A stretch of DNA of 64,000 bases from a virus, in the IMG/VR virus record IMGVR_UViG_3300023235_000008, positions 166,060 through 230,059 of that record; one strand, given 5' to 3'. A program made the position numbers and the translations under genes. The notes beneath the pieces were generated by a model that was not told where the DNA came from, did not search any database, and saw nothing but the letters and a program-made list of their open reading frames with translations. Shown piece after piece: positions 12,698-57,517 of this stretch; the stretch's first letter is position 1; each line of letters opens with the position of its first letter.

Positions 12698-12725
12698 TTG
12701 ACAAACAAAATGATTGGTGTATAAT
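12698..12725 (+). promoter_or_regulatory. Early promoter giving a leaderless mRNA
   Basis: TTGACA 12698-12703, 16-bp spacer, perfect TATAAT 12720-12725. The ATG starts 6 nt after the -10, so transcription should begin at or next to the start codon. Confidence 0.85.
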
Positions 12726-12731
12726 ACTCCT

Positions 12732-13445
12732 ATGATCAAGTTTACAGACATTCCAAATACAACGTTTAAAGGTTTCCGAGTATTCGGTGACGTGCATGGC
12801 GAGTTCGACGATATGGTTGAAATCGTTACAGGCGCACTTAACGAAGACTTGTTTCCGATTGGACTAGGCGACTTTACTGATCGTGGTCCAGAATCAGACA
12901 AAGTTATGGCTTATGTATTGATGATGGCACGTAACGGTTTGTTCGCCAGCATCATTGGTAACCACGACGACAAGTTGTGGCGGGCTTTGAACGGCAACAA
13001 TGTTAAAATCAACAACGGGTTGGAATTGACATTAGAGCAGTTGAACAACAACGATGACCGTGAAGGCATCGTTAATGAGTGGTTAACTGCAATGCCCAAT
13101 ATGCCATTGTTTGCTACATTTGACAAATATACTTTTGTTCACGGTTCATTTCATCCTGCGATGTTGACGGCTGACGAGTTGGCATACAAAGATAAAAAAG
13201 GATGGGGCAAAGTTGTTTCCCGTGCAATGTATGGTCAAGTTGATGGATTTCAAGAAAACGGTTACCCTAATCGTATCCACGATTGGGTTGATACTATTCC
13301 CGCTGGACATACAGTGTTCGTCGGTCACGAGGTTGTAGGCGATGTGCCAATAACCAAAACAGGTGCCTTGGGTGGCACGGCGCACTTCTTGGACACTGGT
13401 TCGGGCAAGGGCGGTTCAATCTCATTTATGGACGTGGAGTTTTAA
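12732..13445 (+). CDS. PPP-family metallophosphatase (calcineurin-like)
   Basis: 237 residues. All signature motifs of the PPP/calcineurin metallophosphatases are present: GDVHG (about residue 19), GDFTDRG, GNHD, then later His ligands in FVHGSF and VGHEV. The family includes lambda phosphatase, ApaH/PrpE and the phosphatase module of bacterial Pnkp, which removes 2',3'-cyclic phosphates during RNA repair. The sequence alone does not decide the substrate. Its place 0.8 kb upstream of RNA ligase 1 and 3.7 kb upstream of a kinase-like gene makes an RNA end-healing role attractive, as inference. The start follows a -10 box by 6 nt, with no Shine-Dalgarno sequence. Confidence 0.85.
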   Translation: MIKFTDIPNTTFKGFRVFGDVHGEFDDMVEIVTGALNEDLFPIGLGDFTDRGPESDKVMAYVLMMARNGLFASIIGNHDDKLWRALNGNNVKINNGLELTLEQLNNNDDREGIVNEWLTAMPNMPLFATFDKYTFVHGSFHPAMLTADELAYKDKKGWGKVVSRAMYGQVDGFQENGYPNRIHDWVDTIPAGHTVFVGHEVVGDVPITKTGALGGTAHFLDTGSGKGGSISFMDVEF

Positions 13446-14278: not shown

Positions 14279-15484
14279 ATGAAATATAACTTTCCACATA
14301 TCAATCACATCAATGATGTCCTTCCACATATCGAAGGTCGTAAAGAGTTCGTTGTGGCAGAACGAGATGGATTTACGGTTATCAACTATGTCGTAATGAC
14401 GCCTGACCTGTTCCCACCAGTTGTTACTGAAGCAGATGCAATACTGCGTGAATGTCGTGGCATCACTTTCTGCAATGAAACGGGCAAAGTCGTAGCTCGA
14501 AAGTTTCACAAGTTCTTTAACGTTGGCGAACGCATGGAAACCGAGTTCCGTAAACTGGATTTAAGTCAGCCACACGTTATTCTTGAAAAGCTTGATGGCT
14601 CAATGATTACGCCGTATCTGCGTGATGGTAAAGTTGAATGGCATACCAAAATGGGCAAGACTGATGTTGCCGATATGGTTATTCCTTTCGTTGAAGCAAA
14701 TCCACAGTATGCTGAACTGGCAGATTTCATATTGCGTAATAATAACGCTACGCCAATATTTGAGTTCTGTTCACGCAAGAATCGTGTTGTGATTGACCAT
14801 CCAGAAGACCGTATGGTATTACTGGCGGTGCGTGATAACGTAACTGGAAAGTATTGGGAATACGAGCTTGGTCTTGAAATCCCAGCTGTAGAATTTAATG
14901 TCGAGTTGGTCGGACAGCATAAAGCAACGTTTGACAAGGATTTCCTTGAATATGTTCGTGGCTTGGTCGGAACTGAAGGGTTCGTTGTGCGCTTTGATGA
15001 TGGGCATATGTTGAAAATCAAAGCAGAGGATTACTTACAGTTACATCGTGCCAAAGAAGGTATCTCTCATGAGAAGAATGTTTGGTCAATGGTCCTCAAT
15101 GAGTCAGTAGATGATTTGAAGTCATTCTTAGATGATGATGACCGTATGCGTGTTGAAGATTTTGAAGTGAAGTTATGGCGTGAAGTTGATTACGCTGTTC
15201 AGCACTTGGAAATGTTCTTCGGATTTGCAATGGATGATTTGAACAAGCGTGACCTATCAATGTTTGAAGATGCTGACCGTGAACGTAAGAAGATGTTTGC
15301 CATGGAATACGCTAATAACTACCGTAAAGAGTTCAAAGGTGTCTTGTTCAGCATGTTTGATGGTGGCGATGTGCGTGACTTGGTTATACAGTTCATTAAG
15401 AGCAACGTATCAACTGGAACTAAGTTGGATGGAATACGTCCGTTGTTTAACAACATTCAGTTTGATGAAAGGGAGTATGAATAA
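14279..15484 (+). CDS. rnlA: RNA ligase 1 (T4 Rnl1 family)
   Basis: 401 residues (T4 Rnl1: 374). ATP-dependent RNA ligase that seals 3'-OH and 5'-phosphate ends; in T4 it repairs tRNA-Lys cut in the anticodon loop by host PrrC. Motif I is EKLDGS, with nucleophile Lys104. The Rnl1-specific FHKFFNVGE precedes it (residues 76-84). Motif III is IFEFCSRKNRVV, motif IV EGFVVRF and motif V LKIKAEDY. The C-terminal 150 residues match the Rnl1-type helical tRNA-specificity domain in position. It has its own leaderless early promoter. The stop overlaps the next ATG. In this genome it lies near tRNA genes with interrupted anticodon loops, so it may act in splicing as well as repair (inference). Confidence 0.93.
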   Translation: MKYNFPHINHINDVLPHIEGRKEFVVAERDGFTVINYVVMTPDLFPPVVTEADAILRECRGITFCNETGKVVARKFHKFFNVGERMETEFRKLDLSQPHVILEKLDGSMITPYLRDGKVEWHTKMGKTDVADMVIPFVEANPQYAELADFILRNNNATPIFEFCSRKNRVVIDHPEDRMVLLAVRDNVTGKYWEYELGLEIPAVEFNVELVGQHKATFDKDFLEYVRGLVGTEGFVVRFDDGHMLKIKAEDYLQLHRAKEGISHEKNVWSMVLNESVDDLKSFLDDDDRMRVEDFEVKLWREVDYAVQHLEMFFGFAMDDLNKRDLSMFEDADRERKKMFAMEYANNYRKEFKGVLFSMFDGGDVRDLVIQFIKSNVSTGTKLDGIRPLFNNIQFDEREYE

Positions 15485-17108: not shown

Positions 17109-17567
17109 ATGCCTATGTTATATATGCTAATCGGTGTTCCAGCAAGCGGCAAGTCAACTTGGCTTGAACAAAATGCTGATAGTGGTGTAGTTTTAAGCAC
17201 GGACGCACATATTGACAATGTTGCCGCACAACAGGGCAAGTCATATAACGATGTGTTTGGCGATGCGATTAAAAAAGCCACTGTGAAAATGAATAACGAT
17301 TTAAAGCAAGCGGTTAATCGTGGCGAAGATATCCATTGGGATCAAACCAATCTTACGGTTAAATCTCGTCGTGGCAAGCTACAGAAGGTGCCTGATACGT
17401 ATGAAAAGATTGCGGTAGTATTTCCAACACCCGATGCCGACGAACATCAGCGGCGACTGGATTCACGCCCCGGCAAAACTATTCCACCACATATTTTGAA
17501 GAATATGATGGCAACTTTCCAAATGCCTACCACCGATGAAGGATTTGATAGGATAGTAGTAATATGA
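17109..17567 (+). CDS. P-loop polynucleotide kinase-like protein
   Basis: 152 residues. Walker A is GVPASGKST (residues 9-17), followed by a D-containing strand (STDAHIDN) that corresponds to the catalytic Asp region of T4 PNK and bacterial Pnkp, DQTNL (equivalent of T4 PNK's DTNL), and the arginine-rich lid (QRRLDSRPGK). Only the kinase half is present; the HAD 3'-phosphatase half of T4 PNK is missing. A 5'-OH RNA/DNA kinase acting with the metallophosphatase at 12732 and RNA ligase 1 would complete an end-healing set, but other small P-loop kinases (AAA_33) have different substrates. Confidence 0.75.
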   Translation: MPMLYMLIGVPASGKSTWLEQNADSGVVLSTDAHIDNVAAQQGKSYNDVFGDAIKKATVKMNNDLKQAVNRGEDIHWDQTNLTVKSRRGKLQKVPDTYEKIAVVFPTPDADEHQRRLDSRPGKTIPPHILKNMMATFQMPTTDEGFDRIVVI

Positions 17568-19782: not shown

Positions 19783-19915
19783 GGATTGGTAGCTGAGAGG
19801 CACAGCGGCACCTTAATGGGTGTGTCGAAACATAAGCACGTAACAAACTCGCCGAGGACGCTCGAACGATAAGGTTACGCCTGTTACGTTGGTTCAAATC
19901 CAACCCAATCCACCA
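19783..19915 (+). tRNA. tRNA-like gene with about 55 extra nt, identity unresolved
   Basis: Acceptor GGATTGG pairs CCAATCC and is followed by ACCA. D arm GCTG-AGAGGCA-CAGC and T arm GTTGG-TTCAAAT-CCAAC are perfect. Between them lie 80 nt instead of about 23. GCACC/GGTGT could be the anticodon stem, with the six-base loop TTAATG, which would suggest Leu(TAA) or Ile. The remaining 55 nt, with a CGTAAC/GTTACG stem, would then be an insertion in the variable region. The exon boundaries cannot be fixed by reading. Confidence 0.6.
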
Positions 19916-20086: not shown

Positions 20087-20189
20087 CGTGGATGTCAGAA
20101 GCGTTTAAGCTTCGGGTATATTACAACTTTCGTCCCATGGGATGGGTGCCGAAGTGATATATCTGCTGGTGTAAGCCCAGTGCCCACGC
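20087..20189 (+). ncRNA. tRNA-like structured RNA, possibly a degenerate interrupted tRNA
   Basis: CGTGGAT can pair with GCCCACG (one mismatch) and GCTGG-TGTAAGC-CCAGT forms a T-arm-like hairpin directly before it. A GAAGC/GCTTC hairpin takes the D-arm place, and a long hairpin with a ten-pair base (GGTATATTAC/GTGATATATC) takes the anticodon-arm place. Could be a tRNA with an insertion in the anticodon arm, but the exons cannot be joined into a clean loop. Confidence 0.3.
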
Positions 20190-20456
20190 CTATTTAGTGA
20201 CCGTTACAGACAGGTTTTGGCAACCTCTCATAAGCAATACTAGTAAAAGCTTTGGATGGGGAAACACCAAACGGCACTAATCCAGTTTGCGATAGCTTAA
20301 TAACTCTTGGATAAGCGCACTAAGAGTAAAGCGTCTGGTATTTCGCCAGAAGATGGTAAACGAAAGGAATAATGCATTATTCCAAGTAGTTGCGGCACTG
20401 ACCACCTCGCAAAGCCAAACTTAGGGTAGAAGCAGCATTATGCTCCCCTCCTTTAT
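20190..20456 (+). other. Gene-free stretch with many hairpins
   Basis: No reading frame with coding character. Several perfect hairpins, for example AGGTT/AACCT at about 20212, TCTGG-TATTTCG-CCAGA at about 20334 and the palindrome GGAATAAT-GC-ATTATTCC at about 20366. Probably part of a long structured transcript; I recognise no RNA family. Confidence 0.4.
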
Positions 20457-20567
20457 TAGCGTGAAAAACGGAGGTATTGCAGTTCGATTCTGCTGATCTT
20501 GTTCGTAAGAAAAATAGTGGTCTGTTGTGGGTAGCACCCAGCCTATGGTTTCGAATCCTTCACGCTA
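20457..20567 (+). ncRNA. tRNA-like structured RNA
   Basis: The ends pair perfectly over nine bases (TAGCGTGAA/TTCACGCTA). A T-arm-like hairpin GCAG-TTCGATT-CTGC lies near the 5' end, and TTTCGAATCC lies just before the 3' arm, so two T-loop-like sequences are present. No anticodon arm is evident. A permuted or recombined tRNA is possible. Confidence 0.3.
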
Positions 20568-20582
20568 TAGTAAATACCCACA

Positions 20583-23468: not shown

Positions 23469-23546
23469 GGATACGAGCCAACTATTGGTTTGTTGGGGCG
23501 GCCTTTTAACCCGTGTCTATTCTCGGTTCGATTCCGAGCGTATCCT
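23469..23546 (+). tRNA. tRNA-Lys(TTT)
   Basis: Acceptor GGATACG/CGTATCC, D stem CCAAC/GTTGG, anticodon loop CTTTTAA on GCGGC/CCCGT (one C-C mismatch), T arm CTCGG-TTCGATT-CCGAG. CCA not encoded. Confidence 0.85.
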
Positions 23547-23562
23547 CGTCTGTCAATATATA

Positions 23563-23610
23563 GTTACCTCCACGCGGTGACGGATGGAAAAGTTCGATAT
23601 AATATCGAAC
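23563..23610 (+). ncRNA. Structured RNA element, copy 1
   Basis: GTTACC-TCCACGC-GGTGAC hairpin, GGATGGAAAA linker, then the perfect hairpin GTTCGATA-TAA-TATCGAAC. A second element at 29597 has the same order with ACC-TCCACGT-GGT, a GGAAA linker and a following hairpin. The conserved loop and linker with different stem sequences look like a small RNA motif. Confidence 0.5.
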
Positions 23611-23631
23611 CTTACTAAATACTATATGAAA

Positions 23632-26591: not shown

Positions 26592-27245
26592 ATGAAATAT
26601 GAAACATTCAATTACTGCTTTCCCGGTCGCCCACGTAAAGCGATTGCCCCAGCATTCCTAAACTTTCACGAAAAGCGTGGATGGGTAGGTCAATACAAAA
26701 AGAATGGAACGTGTAACGTTTTGTTTGTATCGCCTGATAAAGAAGTCACGGCTATGACACGACATAACGATACCCACAAACTTTGGACACCCACAGAAGC
26801 TTCTACTGGACTACTCCGCACAGTACCCGGCAATGGCTGGTGGGTGTTTAATGCCGAACTACTACACAGTAAATCACAGGCTGGACCGACCGATACCAAC
26901 TATCTATTCGATGTTCAAGTCGCCGATGGTGAAGTATTACTAGACAAAACATTTGCTGAACGTATTAAGATTATGGAAGACCTATTCTTGAAAGAGGATT
27001 CCGTCGAAGAATATAGCCATTACGTGGTAGGTGAGCGTGTATGGCTTGCTAAGACCATCACAGAGGGGTTTAAAGACAAATGGGACGAAGCAGATAGAGT
27101 TGCAAAAACACTCGATACTTCGCCTACCGATGAAGGATTGGTGTTGAAAAATCCAAAGGCAGTTTTGAAGCCACCGTTTTCAGCAGATTCAAATGCGGCA
27201 TGGCAAGTCAAATGTCGGGTGGCACACACAAACTATGCATTCTGA
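26592..27245 (+). CDS. Minimal nucleotidyltransferase (DNA or RNA ligase-like)
   Basis: 217 residues. The ordered motifs of ATP-dependent nucleic acid ligases can be traced: motif I in GQYKKNGT (Lys36 as nucleophile, with Asn where KxDG has Asp), motif III in WWVFNAELLHSK, IIIa in YLFDVQVADGEVLL, IV in DEGLVLKNP and V in WQVKCRVA. It is only an adenylation domain with no OB-fold or added C-terminal domain, like small Rnl-type ligases. Substrate unknown. Its place inside the tRNA array suggests RNA, but DNA nick sealing is possible. Leaderless promoter; the stop overlaps the next gene. Confidence 0.72.
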   Translation: MKYETFNYCFPGRPRKAIAPAFLNFHEKRGWVGQYKKNGTCNVLFVSPDKEVTAMTRHNDTHKLWTPTEASTGLLRTVPGNGWWVFNAELLHSKSQAGPTDTNYLFDVQVADGEVLLDKTFAERIKIMEDLFLKEDSVEEYSHYVVGERVWLAKTITEGFKDKWDEADRVAKTLDTSPTDEGLVLKNPKAVLKPPFSADSNAAWQVKCRVAHTNYAF

Positions 27246-27498: not shown

Positions 27499-27756
27499 AT
27501 GAAAGATATAAAAGAAGCACGGATTTGCCGTGAACAAGAGTTTTATGCTAAGTGTGGCGAACTCTTAGGATTGGAACATAAATATGTTGTTCCGTATAAA
27601 AGAAAAACACGTTGGAACCAACGCAATCCCGGTAACGGTAGATACAAAGGTTTCGGCGTAATAAGATATTTTAACGAAGCGAATATACACGTTATGTGTC
27701 GAAAGGGTTCAAAAACCTTTACCAATGTCGATGCAGTATATGAATGGCTTCAGTGA
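27499..27756 (+). CDS. Small basic protein of unknown function
   Basis: 85 residues, basic (YKRKTRWNQRNPGNGRYKGFG) with an aromatic C-terminus. Its stop codon is followed with no gap by tRNA-Leu(TAG), so both lie on one transcript. RNA binding is possible from composition only. Confidence 0.65.
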   Translation: MKDIKEARICREQEFYAKCGELLGLEHKYVVPYKRKTRWNQRNPGNGRYKGFGVIRYFNEANIHVMCRKGSKTFTNVDAVYEWLQ

Positions 27757-27923
27757 GCGAGTGTGGTGAAATTGGTAAACACGCCAGATTTATGAGAGTC
27801 TCCGTTATAGGCTCCAATCTACAAGTTAGATTGTTTGGGGAACCGAGAAGGCTAAACCTTCAAAGTTCAAATCAGGTTCTGGTGCCGAAAGGTTTGGAGG
27901 TTCAAGTCCTCTCACTCGTACCA
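27757..27923 (+). tRNA. tRNA-Leu(TAG) with an 82-nt insertion in the anticodon loop
   Basis: Acceptor GCGAGTG/CACTCGT, ACCA encoded, D arm GTG...CAC, anticodon stem CCAGA/TCTGG, class II variable arm TGCCGAAAGGTTT, T arm GGAGG-TTCAAGT-CCTCT. The anticodon loop is 89 nt long. Removing 82 nt (27793-27874) leaves TTTAGGT, a normal Leu(TAG) loop. Total 167 nt. Confidence 0.9.
27793..27874 (+). other. Putative 82-nt tRNA intron
   Basis: Interrupts the anticodon of tRNA-Leu(TAG) after position 34 or 35 (one base ambiguous, because A occurs at both borders). Three hairpins in order: GAGTC/GGCTC, AATCTA/TAGATT and GAAGG/CCTTC, then AAAGTT. The intron in tRNA-Val(TAC) has the same three hairpins with different paired bases and the same TATAG and CTTCAAAGTT blocks. 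Confidence 0.8.
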
Positions 27924-27929
27924 AAATAA

Positions 27930-28005
27930 CGTAGGGTGGAGCAGTGGTCAGCTCGTGAGTCTCATAAACTCAAGGTCGGGGGTTCGAATCCCCCCCCTGC
28001 AACCA
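27930..28005 (+). tRNA. tRNA-fMet(CAT), initiator
   Basis: Acceptor CGTAGGG/CCCTGCA with the C-A mismatch at 1:72 that marks bacterial initiators. D region TGGAGCAG...GCTCG close to E. coli tRNA-fMet, anticodon arm TGAGT-CTCATAA-ACTCA, ACCA encoded. The three G-C pairs of the initiator anticodon stem are not present. Confidence 0.85.
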
Positions 28006-28048
28006 AAATATACAACGATAAATACTATTATCAAAAAGGAGAAAAGCA

Positions 28049-28240
28049 ATGATGATCGTAGGTTATCGTTCAAACGTAAACGCCGCAGAGGGCGTAAGAG
28101 CAGTAGTTAAACACACAGGTAAGCCAGTCGGCGAGGCACGTAAACTAATCGATTCTGCAATCGGTGGACAATCAGTTTTATTCGATTCAGATTGGGTATT
28201 ACGTGAAGACCTCGAAGACAATGGATTTATCATAGACTAA
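28049..28240 (+). CDS. Small protein, possibly L7/L12 C-terminal-like
   Basis: 63 residues, AAAGGAGA 7 nt upstream of the ATG. GVRAVVKHTGKPVGEARKLI with a closing LREDLEDNGFIID resembles the helix-loop-helix and last strand of the L7/L12 C-terminal domain (compare the gene at 12293). The match is weaker than for that gene. Confidence 0.6.
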   Translation: MMIVGYRSNVNAAEGVRAVVKHTGKPVGEARKLIDSAIGGQSVLFDSDWVLREDLEDNGFIID

Positions 28241-28245
28241 AAAAT

Positions 28246-28320
28246 GCGGATATAGCTCAGAGGCAGAGCAGAAGGTTTCCAACCTTCGTGTCGGGATTTC
28301 GAAATTCCCTATCCGCTCCA
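28246..28320 (+). tRNA. tRNA-Gly(TCC)
   Basis: Acceptor GCGGATA/TATCCGC, T discriminator and CCA, anticodon arm GAAGG-TTTCCAA-CCTTC, T loop TTCGAAA. Confidence 0.92.
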
Positions 28321-28426
28321 ACAAAGCAAAAGCGCTTCACGTTCAATAGTGATGCTCCTTATTTTGATTAAGTTCAAGCCTTCGGGTCATAGGGGTTATA
28401 TACTGGCTAAAGTTGAACATAGTTTC

Positions 28427-28502
28427 GGGGTATTAGCTCATCGGGGAGAGCACGACGTTAGCACGGTCGAGGTGGTAGGTTCGAGTCCTTGTTGGCCCAC
28501 CA
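28427..28502 (+). tRNA. tRNA-Ala(AGC)-like
   Basis: D arm GCTC/GAGA-like, anticodon loop TTAGCAC (the usual Ala loop shape with A34), T loop TTCGAGT, ACCA encoded. The acceptor has two mismatches (GGGGTAT against TTGGCCC) and the anticodon stem one, so function is uncertain. The 100 nt upstream hold a GTTCAA/TTGAAC-closed hairpin but no gene. Confidence 0.6.
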
Positions 28503-28508
28503 ATATAT

Positions 28509-28585
28509 AGTTGCGTAGCATAACTGGCGAATGCCGACTCCTCATAAGAGTTTTTATTCTGGTTCGAATCCAGACGTGACTACCA
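28509..28585 (+). tRNA. tRNA-Met(CAT), elongator or Ile2 type
   Basis: Acceptor AGTTGCG/CGTGACT (two G-U pairs), ACCA encoded, D stem GCAT/ATGC, anticodon arm GACTC-CTCATAA-GAGTT, T arm TCTGG-TTCGAAT-CCAGA. Confidence 0.9.
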
Positions 28586-28610
28586 AAATAAAAGGCGCAG
28601 GAACACGTTC

Positions 28611-28618
28611 CATAAATA
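28611..28618 (+). promoter_or_regulatory. Late promoter box, leaderless spacing
   Basis: CATAAATA ending 5 nt before the ATG at 28624. Confidence 0.5.
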
Positions 28619-28623
28619 TATGT

Positions 28624-29321
28624 ATGAAAAGTATGTTTGAAGAAAACCCCGTTTATCGGGATGGATGGGAATATGATGATAATATCAAAGCCAATAAAGT
28701 AGTATATGCTATTGGATGCAGTTGGATACATTATAGTTGGTTCACTCGGGTACACGCTCTAAAATATCCAGACACCCTTCTTATCAATAGGTCATTCGGC
28801 GGTCATGGAAATAGTATGATTATAGACACGGTAAAACGTGAATATGATCTAATGCAAAAGTTTGATGATATATATTTTATAGTTTGTTTCTCCGAAGTAG
28901 GTAGAAATATCAAAGACTTTTCATATCAAAATCCAAAAAATTACAACGGTGTTCAAGAATATGAAAAAGCAATACTATACAATCAGATGGAATGCATTGA
29001 TCAGTTTCTCGGCAATGAACAAAGGTTTATAACAACCAGTTTCGTCAGTAATCCATATAATAATAATAAGCGTATTATTGACTTCTGTGAAAAGACATAT
29101 GATCAACCATGCGAAAGTTATACAGCTGCACCGGTGCATTCGAATACCTCAAAGATAGAAATAAGGTGTTCGATTTTGATTTGAATACATTAAGCAACGA
29201 CTTAGAGGATTGTATTAAATATATCGATTGGATGAATAGCCACAAACACATAGAAAATAATCACGCATTTGGATTCACGCCATATGAAAGTTTTATAGAT
29301 TATTTTTATCATGATAAATAA
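28624..29321 (+). pseudogene. SGNH-like protein with a frameshift
   Basis: From ATG 28624 the frame reads VVYAIGCSWIHYSW, then INRSFGGHGNSM, like the GxS and GxxN blocks of SGNH hydrolases and like the intact gene at 47878. From about 29105-29140 the protein continues better in the -1 frame (TGAFEYLKDRNKVFDFDLNT to 29321), while the first frame stops at 29184. Programmed frameshift, mutation and sequencing error are all possible. Catalytic activity is not established for either copy. Confidence 0.6.
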
Positions 29322-29413
29322 TAATACACCTTGAACGGACCCGTAATGTTGGATGGGCCGCGCCCCTTGAGGTTTTCTAAGGCTCAATCGCCAACACGAA
29401 AGAGTTACAAAAT

Positions 29414-29513
29414 GCCCCTATAGCTGAGTGGTTTAGCAAGGGTTTTGTCAAGTACATCCGAGGGTGTATTTGAAAAACCCTAGACCGGAGTTCGATTCTT
29501 CGTGGGGGCACCA
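29414..29513 (+). tRNA. tRNA-Thr(TGT) with a 26-nt insertion in the anticodon loop
   Basis: Acceptor GCCCCTA/TGGGGGC, ACCA encoded, D stem GCT/AGC, anticodon stem AGGGT/ACCCT, T arm CGGAG-TTCGATT-CTTCG. The anticodon loop holds 33 nt. Removing 26 nt leaves TTTGTAA, a Thr(TGT) loop. Other placements would give TGA or TAA anticodons, which do not fit a class I tRNA; Thr is otherwise absent from the array. Confidence 0.75.
29449..29474 (+). other. Putative 26-nt hairpin intron
   Basis: Consists of a ten-pair hairpin (CAAGTACATC with GGTGTATTTG, loop CGAG) plus two bases. Borders are ambiguous by a few bases. Confidence 0.6.
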
Positions 29514-29527
29514 TTCCTAAAATATTA

Positions 29528-29596
29528 GGGGCTGCTGTATGGGACAGACTCTGCACTTGCACTGCGGATGGTGGGGATCGTTACCCCATAGCTCCA
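29528..29596 (+). tRNA. tRNA-Ala(TGC)
   Basis: Acceptor GGGGCTG/TAGCTCC with the G3-U70 pair that specifies alanine. Anticodon arm CTGCA-CTTGCAC-TGCGG, T stem TGGGG/CCCCA with the unusual loop ATCGTTA. The D arm is short (CTGT/ACAG). CCA not encoded. Only 69 nt, so standard scanners may miss it. Confidence 0.75.
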
Positions 29597-29652
29597 GATT
29601 GATAATATTGACTACCTCCACGTGGTATCAATCGGAAACTACAGAAATGTAG
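29597..29652 (+). ncRNA. Structured RNA element, copy 2
   Basis: Outer stem GATTGATA/TATCAATC containing ACC-TCCACGT-GGT, then the GGAAA linker and CTACA-GAAA-TGTAG with a GNRA loop. Compare 23563-23610. It lies between tRNA-Ala and tRNA-Val. Confidence 0.5.
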
Positions 29653-29674
29653 GCTAAATGTCAAAAAGAATAAA

Positions 29675-29830
29675 GGGTCTTTAGCTCAGTTGGTAGAGCA
29701 TCTCGCTTATGTGAGACTTCCTATAGTCTCCGGTCTATTGTTAGACCGTCATTGGTATACTGCGAAGGGAAATCTTCAAAGTTAATGAACATCGAGAATG
29801 TCGGCGGTTCAAACCCGTCAAGACCCACCA
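29675..29830 (+). tRNA. tRNA-Val(TAC) with an 80-nt insertion in the anticodon loop
   Basis: Acceptor GGGTCTT/AAGACCC, ACCA encoded, D arm GCTC/GAGC, anticodon stem TCTCG/CGAGA, T arm GGCGG-TTCAAAC-CCGTC. The anticodon loop is 87 nt. Removing 80 nt (29710-29789) leaves CTTACAT, and the result closely resembles bacterial tRNA-Val(TAC). Confidence 0.9.
29710..29789 (+). other. Putative 80-nt tRNA intron
   Basis: Same site and same architecture as 27793-27874. Hairpins GAGAC/GTCTC (loop with TATA), GGTCTA/TAGACC and GAAGG/TCTTC, then AAAGTT. Covariation of the second hairpin between the two introns (GGTCTA versus AATCTA) supports real pairing. Confidence 0.8.
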
Positions 29831-29896
29831 TTTTAGAGGTATATGGTTAAAGTCCATATTTAAAGCGACGGTCAGTTCTCGCCTCTACTATAATAT
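29831..29896 (+). other. Gene-free spacer with a two-armed fold
   Basis: TAGAGG/CCTCTA can enclose ATATGG-TTAAAGT-CCATAT (six pairs, seven-base loop) and GCGA/TCGC. It resembles a cloverleaf with one arm missing; no identity can be given. Confidence 0.25.
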
Positions 29897-29985
29897 GGAT
29901 AGTTGGCTGAGTTGGCCGAAAGCGCTCGATTGCTAATTGAGTGAACCGCAAGGTTCCGTGGGTTCGAATCCCACACTATCCGCCA
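29897..29985 (+). tRNA. tRNA-Ser(GCT)
   Basis: Acceptor GGATAGT/ACTATCC with GCCA, anticodon arm CTCGA-TTGCTAA-TTGAG, long variable arm (AACCGCAAGGTT), T loop TTCGAAT. Confidence 0.92.
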
Positions 29986-31270: not shown

Positions 31271-31492
31271 ATGATGGACGCAATTTATAACTTTCTTGCC
31301 ACGGCTATCATTGTTGTATTGACACCGCTTATCGTATACTCTATAATAAGCATTACATTTTACATTTCTTCCCGTGGTGAAACTGGATATCACACTAGTC
31401 TTCTAAACTTGTATTTCGAGTTCGAGTCTCGACGGGAAGACCATAATACGGGTGCGTGGTGGAATTGGTATACACGCCAGACTTTTCAGTAA
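31271..31492 (+). CDS. Small membrane protein frame running into tRNA-Arg
   Basis: ATG at 31271 directly after the previous stop. The first 40 residues contain a clear membrane helix (LATAIIVVLTPLIVYSIISI), but the rest of the frame is tRNA-Arg and part of tRNA-Leu. Either a short protein whose tail happens to overlap the tRNAs, or non-coding. No ribosome binding site is evident. Confidence 0.35.
   Translation: MMDAIYNFLATAIIVVLTPLIVYSIISITFYISSRGETGYHTSLLNLYFEFESRREDHNTGAWWNWYTRQTFQ
31319..31347 (+). promoter_or_regulatory. Consensus promoter of the last tRNA pair
   Basis: TTGACA 31319-31324, 17-bp spacer, TATAAT 31342-31347, about 20 nt before tRNA-Arg(TCT). Confidence 0.85.
31368..31443 (+). 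tRNA. tRNA-Arg(TCT)
   Basis: Acceptor CTTCCCG/CGGGAAG, ACCA encoded, D stem GTG/CAC, anticodon arm CTAGT-CTTCTAA-ACTTG (one T-T mismatch), T arm TCGAG-TTCGAGT-CTCGA. Confidence 0.9.
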
Positions 31493-31568
31493 GGCTTTCG
31501 GAAACGAGAGTTTTACAAAAAATCTGGTGCCTTATGGATTGCGGGTTCGAGTCCCGCCGCACCCACCA
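31450..31568 (+). tRNA. tRNA-Leu(TAA) with a 34-nt insertion in the anticodon loop
   Basis: Acceptor GGGTGCG/CGCACCC, ACCA encoded, D arm GTG...CAC as in the other Leu gene, anticodon stem CCAGA/TCTGG, class II variable arm, T arm GCGGG-TTCGAGT-CCCGC. The loop is 41 nt; removing 34 nt leaves CTTAAAA, a Leu(TAA) loop. Confidence 0.85.
31485..31518 (+). other. Putative 34-nt hairpin intron
   Basis: Contains a 12-pair hairpin (GTAAGGCTTTCG with CGAGAGTTTTAC, loop GAAA). It interrupts between positions 34 and 35, the site known from cyanobacterial and plastid tRNA-Leu(UAA) group I introns, but is far too short to be one. Confidence 0.7.
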
Positions 31569-54574: not shown

Positions 54575-57517
54575 ATGAGTTGGCGTAAACACTTTAGAAC
54601 AGCAAATGCAAGCCCCCTTACTAATAATAGTCGGGGCAATGATTCATTTTCGCATAACAACTGGGCTTCCCAGTTACCAGAGGTTTATATTGGTCACCCA
54701 AATAGGGTCGAGCGATATGCCCAATATGAGAATATGGATAACGACAGTGAAGTAAACGCCGCACTGGATATTATCGCCGAGTTTTGTACACAAAAGAATG
54801 GTGATAACGGAACAGGGTTCGATATTCATTTTTATGAAGAAGCAACAGATTCTGAAATCAAGATTCTAAAAGAAGCCCTTATTAACTGGTGGAAAATTAA
54901 TAAATTCGAAACACGTTTGTTTAAAGCATTCCGTAATACTATTAAATATGGCGATCAAGTCTTTATCCGTGACCCCGATACACTAGAATGGTTCTGGGTT
55001 AATATGGAAGATGTCATTAAAGTAATCGTTAATGAAGGCGAAGGCAAAGCACCCGAGCAATACGTGGTTAGAAACATCAATCCAAACTTCGAAAGCTTAA
55101 CAGCAACGCAACGAACACACCAAGATCAAGTAGCTGGACAGACATCAAGCGGAACATCCGTTAATCAAAGCTACCAACAATCAAGTGCAGCAAATGGTAG
55201 CAGTGGTGGATCACGATTTGAAAATCAAATCAATGAATTCGCAGTCGATGCTGAACATATTGTTCATTGTTCACTAACCGAAGGCATGGATGTATCTTGG
55301 CCATTTGGTAATAGTATTTTGGAACGTATTTTCAAGGTATATAAACAAAAAGAACTACTAGAAGACGCACTTCTTATCTATCGTATCCAACGTGCACCTG
55401 AACGCCGAGTATTCAAAGTAGATGTTGGTAATATGCCATCACATATGGCTATGGCGTTTGTTGAGCGTGTGAAAAACGAAATTCACCAGAAGCGTCTGCC
55501 GTCACAAAGCGGTGGAAACAATATGATGGATGCTACATATAATCCACTATGTTTAGATTTGAGTACCAGAATTCCGTTATTGGATGGTAGGACGCTATCA
55601 CTTAATCATATTATTGATGAATTTAATGAAGGTAAGGAAAATTGGGTTTATTCTACTAATCCAGAAAATGGCGAAATAGTTCCCGGTCCAGTATCATGGG
55701 CTGGTATTACCAGAGAGAATGCGGAAGTAGTTAAATTAACTTTTGATAACGGCGAGACATTGACATGTACCCCCGATCATAAAATTCCAGTATTAGGAAA
55801 AGGATTTGTTAGTGCATCCGAACTAACTGCCGATGATAGTTTAATTTCACATAATACACAACAAACACCCATTACGACTGGAAAAAAACATAAAGATAAA
55901 ACATATACACAGGTGTTTGATCATAACAAGAAAAACTGGATTTATGTTCATAGAATGGTTGCTAATTTTATGAAGAATAAAACTCTTCATGAAGAGTTTA
56001 CATACTTGGACGAAAATATAAATTTATCTAAAAATACCATTCATCATAAGGATTATACAAGAAATAACAATAATCCAAGTAACTTATGCTTTATGAATAA
56101 AGAAGATCATATTAAGTTTCATAGTGAAAATAATTTCTGGAATGTTGTGTCAGATGCCGAGGCAGCACGTATCAAAAATAAGATATCTATTAAAACCAAA
56201 CGTAACTGGGATAATATGAATTCTATTGATAAAGCTGTGGCAGTTAATGATATGCGAACTATTCAACAGAAAGCAGTATGGATGCGCAAAAATGATCCTG
56301 AAACTAAGGCATCTTATGCCAAAAATATGTCTGCATCTCAAAAAATACGCATGAAAGAAAATCCAAAGGCATTAGCGCAATTACTCAAAAATGCTGAAAA
56401 TAGAGTTCCGTTTAATAATCAAGAGATGGTTTTAACACAGCAAATGTTAGGCAGAGTTGTTAGTATTATAGTAAAAAATAATACCACCACAAAAACTGAA
56501 GTTTTAAAGTTATGCGATGCTGATTCCATATTAATGAATATGTTTAGAGATGCTAATCCCAAAACAAAAAGATTATGTAAAATTGATTTTGACAAATGGG
56601 GATATAGTAAAATGGACAAACTTATAACCCAAGAAGGTTATAGTAATTGGAAAGATTTTACTAAAAAAGTTAGTCAATATAACCATAAAGTAGTGTCAAT
56701 TGAGTATTTGGAAGAGACAATGGATGTTGGCACGATTACAGTTGATGGACTAGAAGAATATCATAACTATCATACTTTTGCTATTGATGCCGGAATATAT
56801 GTTAAGAATTCAACAAATGAAGATTATTTCTTCCCCGTAACATCGGATGGTCGTGGTTCATCGGTTGATGTTCTACCGGGTGGACAAAATCTCGGTGAAA
56901 TTAATGATTTGCTTTACTTTAATAATAAATTATTGCGTGGATTACGTATACCGTCATCATATCTACCTACGGGACCAGACGAAGGTTCGCAAACATACAA
57001 TGATGGTCGTATGGGAACCGCATTGATTCAAGAAAAGACGTTCAATGACTACTGTATTCGTCTTCAAAATATGCTTGCACCATCATTTGACCAAGAGTTT
57101 AAGGTATTTTTACAAGAACGTGGATACAATATTGATAACTCAATCTTTGATTTACGTTTCAATGAACCACAAAACTTCTCAGCGTATCGTGAAGTAGAAG
57201 TAGATAGCAACCGTATCGGAACATTTACACAGCTTCTTGAAGTGCAGGGAATGTCATTGCGTTTCTTACAAAAGCGTTATCTTGGTCTTTCAGAAGAAGA
57301 AATGCAAGAAAATGACCGTATGTGGCGTGAAGAAAACGTCGAGTCTGAAGCAACACCTGTAACTGGCGACAGTATGCGTGGGCTTGGTATGAGTCCGGGT
57401 GGATTTAATGCTGATATGGACATTGCAGACCCTGATCAACCAGACTTTGGCGGTGATGAAATGGGCGAGATGGGTGGACCAGAAGGCGACGACATGGATG
57501 CTGACCTAGAATTGTAA
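54575..57517 (+). CDS. 20: Portal vertex protein gp20, interrupted by an intein
   Basis: 980 residues in total; spliced 560 (T4: 524). The exteins show portal blocks: NWASQLPEVYIGHPNRVERY, DNDSEVNAALDIIAEFCTQK, IYRIQRAPERRVFKVDVGNM, and after the intein EDYFFPVTSDGRGSSVDVLP and GGQNLGEINDL. The C-terminal 60 residues are acidic. gp20 is the dodecameric DNA gate that nucleates head assembly. Intein at residues 326-745, inserted in the most conserved stretch. Confidence 0.93.
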   Translation: MSWRKHFRTANASPLTNNSRGNDSFSHNNWASQLPEVYIGHPNRVERYAQYENMDNDSEVNAALDIIAEFCTQKNGDNGTGFDIHFYEEATDSEIKILKEALINWWKINKFETRLFKAFRNTIKYGDQVFIRDPDTLEWFWVNMEDVIKVIVNEGEGKAPEQYVVRNINPNFESLTATQRTHQDQVAGQTSSGTSVNQSYQQSSAANGSSGGSRFENQINEFAVDAEHIVHCSLTEGMDVSWPFGNSILERIFKVYKQKELLEDALLIYRIQRAPERRVFKVDVGNMPSHMAMAFVERVKNEIHQKRLPSQSGGNNMMDATYNPLCLDLSTRIPLLDGRTLSLNHIIDEFNEGKENWVYSTNPENGEIVPGPVSWAGITRENAEVVKLTFDNGETLTCTPDHKIPVLGKGFVSASELTADDSLISHNTQQTPITTGKKHKDKTYTQVFDHNKKNWIYVHRMVANFMKNKTLHEEFTYLDENINLSKNTIHHKDYTRNNNNPSNLCFMNKEDHIKFHSENNFWNVVSDAEAARIKNKISIKTKRNWDNMNSIDKAVAVNDMRTIQQKAVWMRKNDPETKASYAKNMSASQKIRMKENPKALAQLLKNAENRVPFNNQEMVLTQQMLGRVVSIIVKNNTTTKTEVLKLCDADSILMNMFRDANPKTKRLCKIDFDKWGYSKMDKLITQEGYSNWKDFTKKVSQYNHKVVSIEYLEETMDVGTITVDGLEEYHNYHTFAIDAGIYVKNSTNEDYFFPVTSDGRGSSVDVLPGGQNLGEINDLLYFNNKLLRGLRIPSSYLPTGPDEGSQTYNDGRMGTALIQEKTFNDYCIRLQNMLAPSFDQEFKVFLQERGYNIDNSIFDLRFNEPQNFSAYREVEVDSNRIGTFTQLLEVQGMSLRFLQKRYLGLSEEEMQENDRMWREENVESEATPVTGDSMRGLGMSPGGFNADMDIADPDQPDFGGDEMGEMGGPEGDDMDADLEL
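55550..56809 (+). mobile_element. Intein with HNH endonuclease in gp20
   Basis: 420 residues. Cys1 with block A (CLDLSTRIPLLDGRTLSLNH), block B TCTPDHKIP, an HNH-type insert (TIHHKDYTRNNNNPSNLCFM then NKEDHIKFH), block F (TVDGLEEYHNYHTFAIDAGI) and a terminal YVKN before extein Ser. A long basic segment after the HNH core probably binds DNA. Independent of the gp55 intein in endonuclease type. Confidence 0.9.

Follow-up and report, generated by a model that had tools for sequence, protein, structure and literature searches.

Short structured inserts in the anticodon loops of phage transfer RNA genes and their possible removal by proteins

Interrupted tRNA genes in the window

The 64,000-nucleotide (nt) stretch analysed here, hereafter the window, is the terminal 64 kilobases (kb) of a 230-kb viral contig (IMG/VR record IMGVR_UViG_3300023235_000008, positions 166,060 to 230,059). 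On its + strand, from 19.2 to 31.6 kb, it carries an array of transfer RNA (tRNA) genes, four of which are interrupted in the anticodon loop. Judged from its head proteins, the virus is a T4-like large phage; the identity of the major capsid protein is 78% with the nearest contigs and about 65% with large isolates, and a gp5 search found no close relatives.

The tRNA genes were located with ARAGORN, which counted 17, with Rfam, which counted 21, and with a cloverleaf scan that tolerates introns. The scan gave four genes with long anticodon loops, tRNA-Leu(TAG) (89 nt), tRNA-Val(TAC) (87 nt), tRNA-Thr(TGT) (33 nt) and tRNA-Leu(TAA) (41 nt), and joining of the exons resulted in an ordinary tRNA in all four (Table 1). 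The initial annotation of this DNA had reported the first two, with the same loop lengths, and had claimed that removal of 82 and 80 nt leaves ordinary tRNAs, which the exon joining bore out; the Thr and Leu(TAA) genes had been overlooked. ARAGORN overlooked both tRNA-Leu(TAG) and tRNA-Val(TAC), and the Rfam tRNA model matched 153 nt of the latter with 55.2 bits. The assignment of tRNA-Thr(TGT) is based on the best tRNA body match. The ordinary tRNA genes of the window account for 17 amino acids, several anticodons having been assigned by eye; the three left over are Leu, Val and Thr, precisely the specificities of the interrupted genes.

The inserts of tRNA-Leu(TAG) and tRNA-Val(TAC), called introns below in keeping with the interpretation argued for, both lie between positions 34 and 35 (34^35). 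A junction at 35^36 gives an identical reading because of a repeated A, in agreement with the place first given, after base 34 or 35. Their alignment score far exceeded that of shuffled sequences (0 of 2000). The helices P1, P2, P3 and P4 are common to both, with 21 pairs, 6 of them differing at both partners and all of them intact, so that the compensatory differences noted before were found again. The three hairpins described earlier stand as a common fold, though they are actually two hairpins, P1 and P2, plus a third stem, P3, which closes at the 3′ border and encloses hairpin P4 and the word CTTCAAAGTT. This word and TATAG.CTCC are shared, as had been claimed of TATAG, and both inserts begin with ATG. 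The Val insert folded better than its own shuffles (z-score -3.6, 0 of 200) and the Leu insert weakly better (z -1.8, 8 of 200). By alignment and fold, the two inserts are one family within the window genome. Searches of IMG/VR with exact words of the 80-nt introns gave 26 matches, and a search of genome contigs with the Leu pattern gave 28, none of them in a tRNA; BLAST of the whole pre-tRNAs against isolates returned ordinary tRNAs only. A 'split' match in Streptomyces Genie2 was rejected as a split tRNA, being tandem tRNA genes.

The introns of tRNA-Thr(TGT), at 36^37, and tRNA-Leu(TAA), at 34^35, are short stem-loops that adjoin the anticodon stem, and they fold far better than shuffles (z -5.1 and -6.4, respectively).

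Table 1. Positions in the window of the interrupted tRNA genes, their putative introns with predicted helices, and candidate RNA-repair genes
Feature	Position	Strand	Details
pre-tRNA-Leu(TAG)	27757..27923	+	exons 27757-27791 and 27874-27923
82-nt intron of tRNA-Leu(TAG)	27792..27873	+	34^35
tRNA-Leu(TAG) intron helices P1, P2	P1 27796-27801/27809-27814; P2 27815-27821/27827-27833	+
tRNA-Leu(TAG) intron helices P3, P4	P3 27834-27837/27868-27871; P4 27847-27851/27857-27861	+
pre-tRNA-Val(TAC)	29675..29830	+	exons 29675-29708 and 29789-29830
80-nt intron of tRNA-Val(TAC)	29709..29788	+	34^35
tRNA-Val(TAC) intron helices P1, P2	P1 29713-29718/29725-29730; P2 29731-29737/29742-29748	+
tRNA-Val(TAC) intron helices P3, P4	P3 29749-29753/29784-29788; P4 29764-29767/29774-29777	+
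26-nt hairpin intron of tRNA-Thr(TGT) (29414-29513)	29449..29474	+	36^37; CAUC/GGUG motif
34-nt hairpin intron of tRNA-Leu(TAA) (31450-31568)	31485..31518	+	34^35; CUUU/AGAG motif form
Metallophosphatase, candidate for 3′-end healing	12714..13445	+	PF00149; PHROG 8238 middle segment 3.8e-9
Rnl1-type RNA ligase, candidate sealing enzyme	14279..15484	+	Pfam RNA_lig_T4_1 4.5e-29; PHROG 562 and 8238
Kinase-like protein, candidate for 5′-end healing	17109..17567	+	AAA_33; PHROG 505 polynucleotide kinase 1.2e-10; PHROG 8238 N-terminal segment
Weak ATP-dependent ligase relative, function uncertain	26592..27245	+	PF01068 E 7.7e-4, below cut-off; no PHROG

Recurrence in other phages and a natural empty site

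IMG/VR was scanned with tRNA patterns that require an insert and with a covariance model that contains the hairpin motif described below. The contigs are often fragments and the sampling of phages is not random; tRNA identities come from the tRNA bodies and from reading by eye, and in some genes the junctions hold to within one or two positions. Low-scoring matches were left out as uncertain (L246, L256, L270, L274, L300, L388 and L413). Similar inserts were found in many phage tRNAs (Leu, Val, Ile2, Asn, Thr and Arg), nearly always after position 34 or 36, and the phages that carry them at 34^35 or 36^37 include unrelated ones. Their lengths span 26 to about 120 nt, so that the 80-82 nt given at first for the family was too narrow.

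At least five contigs have a tRNA-Leu(TAA) with a 32-41-nt intron at 34^35, and at least three a tRNA-Asn(GTT) with an intron of 32-51 nt. A 28-nt intron lies at 36^37 of the tRNA-Leu(TAA) of L440, and the 30-nt intron in the tRNA-Asn(GTT) of L441 is best read as 33^34. In phage G018, a tRNA-Ile2(CAT)-like gene is interrupted as well, by an intron that has the fold of the G018 Leu intron in different letters. In phage G020, there are an 82-nt intron at 34^35 of tRNA-Val(TAC) and a 78-nt intron in a tRNA-Arg, and their folds differ in detail from those of the window pair. No introns were seen in the regions read of seven isolates (Phosso, Vibrio 2.275.O, MIJ3, GAP32, B23, DSS3P8 and Caulobacter C1) or of the relatives G003 and G006.

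Cultured Aeromonas phages also carry such an insert, PX29 being one of the matches. The anticodon loop of tRNA-Arg(UCU) is interrupted between CTTCT and AA by 26-28 nt in PX29, AsFcp_1, AsFcp_2, AsFcp_4, Ah1, avDM12-TAAL, Aeh1 and phiWae14, and is uninterrupted in phiAS5, where it reads CTTCTAA, a natural empty site. The arm formed by the intron covaries: both partners differ in 8 of 19 pairs, and 91.6% of the cells are paired versus 39-58% when the arm is slid. The tRNA bodies have diverged, yet every listed stem pair is intact, which points to selection on these genes as tRNAs. The empty site, the covariation and the recurrence in unrelated phages support the initial description of these elements as introns inside tRNA anticodons. 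The GenBank record of PX29 joins the interrupted tRNA from two pieces under the label tRNA-Lys, the Aeh1 record lists a 105-nt tRNA-Glu, and the T4-like genome papers searched contain no discussion of the interrupted tRNA. These phages are cultured in the laboratory and one of them has the empty site, which makes the idea directly testable.

Most of the short introns folded better than shuffles with z from -3.3 to -6.4, the phiWae14 intron being weak (z -1.8). A motif, CWUY/RGWG, forming the four pairs C-G, W-W, U.G and Y-R, was found in 10 of 13 short hairpins. It is located 10-13 nt (5′ side) and 10-12 nt (3′ side) from the anticodon stem, about one helical turn. In all five of the 36^37 introns tested, the C of the motif occupies intron base 7 and the G paired with it is 8 nt from the 3′ border, and the motif of the window Thr intron has the same register as in the Aeromonas tRNA-Arg introns. 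A later find, the L440 intron, matches this register exactly and brings the motif-bearing hairpins to eleven; in the further finds L438/L439 and L441 the motif was absent by eye. Because the motif was defined after looking, is contained in the search model and has a chance level of 1-5% per hairpin in a pair-shuffling null, we regard it as a strong lead and not as proof.

Related systems and candidate enzymes

The initial annotation knew of nothing this short in phages. However, tRNA introns of the Lak megaphages of Prevotella, the nearest relatives in print, were published in 2019 as 'enigmatic' (Devoto et al., PMC6784885), and the PX29 record joins one such tRNA. Two of the Lak introns were found again in Lak genomes, in tRNA-Tyr (about 93 nt) and tRNA-Thr (about 114 nt), both with a tRNA-like fold. 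The window introns resemble them in being short, in lying in the anticodon loop of phage tRNAs, some of them tRNA-Thr(TGT), and in belonging to no Rfam class. The plan of the Lak introns recurs in the tRNA-Thr(TGT) intron of G020 (L442 4665-4819, + strand), which lies at 36^37 and consists of a hairpin, an A-rich linker and a tRNA-like fold. Unlike the Lak introns of 93-114 nt, those of the window have 26-82 nt, and the nested fold is absent from all four. The Lak report (PMC6784885) does not describe the motif, the covariation, an empty site across cultured lineages or the enzymes. The class of short hairpins proposed here, with its two sites and its motif register, and the empty site in cultured phages are new as far as the literature searched shows, subscription papers lying outside it.

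The tRNA introns of bacteria and phages are generally regarded as self-splicing ribozymes. A group I intron was in fact found in phage G023 (L445 4760-5032, + strand, the same as L416 1845-2117; RF00028, 58.3 bits), at 34^35 in a loop CTT/AAAA; the array at this locus also has short introns and holds a ROOL RNA. Group I introns of tRNA-Leu(UAA) are located at the same 34^35 site. The window introns share with bacterial group I tRNA introns the bacterial-type tRNAs and, as the G023 intron illustrates, the site, and differ from them in having no catalytic core, in being far smaller (26-82 nt versus about 200 nt or more) and in ending with C, A, A and A, where the last base of a group I intron is G.

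Protein-spliced introns of archaea and eukaryotes are likewise short, lie in the anticodon loop, are recognised by structure and need a nuclease and a ligase (PMC4090602). Their canonical site is 37^38 (PMC4090602), unlike the phage sites 34^35 and 36^37, and no homologue of their endonuclease was found in the phages tested. The bulge-helix-bulge (3-nt bulges, 4-base-pair (bp) helix) was not found at the borders, where the folds give a 1-nt bulge or internal loops. The repair of PrrC-cut tRNA-Lys by T4 Pnk and Rnl1 (PMC3014915) involves the same class of healing and sealing enzymes, anticodon breaks and T4-like phages; in that system a host defence nuclease makes one break (PMC3014915), whereas intron removal needs two cuts.

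The ligase, kinase and phosphatase genes of the window fall in a 5-kb interval immediately upstream of the array and match different segments of the 737-residue PHROG 8238 'RNA ligase'; the weak ligase relative is located 0.5 kb upstream of tRNA-Leu(TAG). Rnl1 is present in G000, G002 and the Aeromonas phages, and Rnl2-type ligases in Lak, G020, G023 and G019, the G020 gene sitting inside the tRNA array. Every intron-bearing record of at least 150 kb tested for both types has an Rnl1 or an Rnl2-type ligase. Because Lak, G020 and G023 have Rnl2-type ligases and no Rnl1, we gave up the idea of a link between the introns and Rnl1 only. The ligase genes are compatible with a role in splicing and are not proof of it, because ligases occur also in phages where no intron was seen.

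Other features were observed in and around the array. The segment 29598-29665 (+), right after tRNA-Ala(TGC) (29525-29599), matches a ribozyme like that of hepatitis delta virus (HDV) (Rfam HDV-F-prausnitzii, E 1e-5) with 41.5 bits, just under the gathering score of 44, and its 5′ end, the cut site of HDV-like ribozymes, abuts the tRNA-Ala 3′ end. It is consistent with the 'theta ribozymes' proposed for processing of tRNA 3′ trailers, so far from gut phages (PMC10879173). The cyclic phosphate left by such a cut would need the phosphatase of the phage. A second candidate, at 23547-23626 (+) right after tRNA-Lys (23469-23547), matches drz-agam-1 below gathering (28.9 bits, E 0.0097), and ACCTCCACG.GGT is common to both. 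A tRNA-like gene at 19783-19915 (+; 40.8 bits) has a 54-nt loop with an ambiguous anticodon and insert. The stretch 20100-20570 (+), within the array, looks structured, has a T-arm-like segment and is perhaps a two-piece transfer-messenger RNA (tmRNA); the relative G002 has a permuted tmRNA within its tRNA array. Translations read by eye suggest inteins in a portal-like protein (54575-57517, +) and in a second phage protein (38962-40788, +).

Competing explanations and implications

We consider, with a probability of about 0.6, that the inserts are true tRNA introns of very small size, excised by proteins, a nuclease plus a phage RNA-repair ligase. The pre-tRNA would keep its cloverleaf, with an extra hairpin or a small multi-stem domain growing from the anticodon loop. 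An endonuclease would read the tRNA body together with the hairpin and cut both borders at 34^35 or 36^37; the hairpin would serve as the handle for recognition, roughly one helical turn away from the anticodon stem, and a phage RNA-repair ligase would seal the two tRNA halves. For the window phage, the split set of kinase, metallophosphatase and Rnl1 ligase is the likely kit. The inserts, their constant sites, the conserved folds with compensatory changes, the recurrence, the empty site and the ligase genes were observed directly; splicing itself, the cutting by proteins and the choice of ligase are what we infer.

Several observations weigh against this explanation. Excision is a prediction from DNA sequence. 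Some introns fold no better than shuffles (L127, z -0.0; L216, z -0.4), and some are without the motif, including the window 80/82-nt pair and the G018 pair. Rnl1 is not in all intron-bearing phages and is also in intron-free ones, and RtcB was not found in the phages tested. No candidate nuclease was recognised in the intron-bearing phages; the tRNA-intron endonuclease PF01974 was found in 0 of 9 records, with four archaeal controls positive, and a host enzyme is possible.

If no splicing takes place, the interrupted tRNAs could, for example, be decoys of host anticodon nucleases, which reportedly shape phage tRNAs (PMC10264068), or genes recently disabled by insertion, for which a perfect empty site is expected after any clean insertion. 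However, over long divergence the tRNAs have retained their anticodons and, with compensatory changes, their stems; the insert too has a conserved fold and constant sites, and without the interrupted genes the window array would not serve all 20 amino acids. Because the tRNA bodies are kept and the amino acids otherwise missing are those of the interrupted genes, we consider decoys or dead genes unlikely. Ordinary host RNA processing enzymes, RNase III-like or those of tRNA end-processing, might instead excise the introns with sealing by a phage or host ligase and no dedicated nuclease. In the 36^37 introns, the two borders lie on one continuous helix, staggered by 2 bp, and resemble an RNase III cut, and the Thr introns of Lak and G020 stop where their nested tRNA-like fold does, a place at which 3′ processing of tRNA would cut. 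The 34^35 introns are of another geometry, the helices are short, and no single host enzyme accounts for both sites; we hold this route improbable. RNase III-like geometry was dropped as a general explanation since it fits the 36^37 introns alone.

It is still harder to see the introns, or at least those of about 80 nt, as tiny RNAs that splice or cleave themselves, either small ribozymes or reduced group I introns. The 80-nt pair does have a conserved complex fold, and the true group I intron of the G023 tRNA lies beside short introns. The site 34^35 is that of the group I intron in cyanobacterial tRNA-Leu(UAA), which we also counted in favour of a ribozyme. Nevertheless, the group I model (RF00028) gave no match in 27700-29900 even at E up to 5, the terminal G is missing, and the 26-35-nt introns at the same sites consist of one hairpin. 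Self-splicing thus seems very unlikely, given that the majority of members are single hairpins and that the model detects the G023 intron but not the window pair. Of the two mechanisms proposed in the initial annotation, a recognition structure for a nuclease fits, and a very small ribozyme does not, since single hairpins of 26-35 nt are too small for any known self-splicing RNA.

Beyond removal by proteins as such, large phages may run a tRNA-splicing system of their own, unrelated to the bulge-helix-bulge endonuclease and to self-splicing, in which a nuclease reads the U.G-marked hairpin one helical turn from the anticodon stem and cuts at 34^35 or 36^37, and a phage ligase joins the halves; we put this forward tentatively, at somewhat less than even odds. 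In that case, the regular work of T4-type RNA ligases would include tRNA splicing as well as repair. A widespread class of 26-120-nt introns that lack a catalytic core would amount to protein-based tRNA splicing beyond archaea and eukaryotes. It would also lend the kinase-ligase 'repair' sets of phages a constructive role and account for the undercounting of phage tRNAs by tRNA finders.

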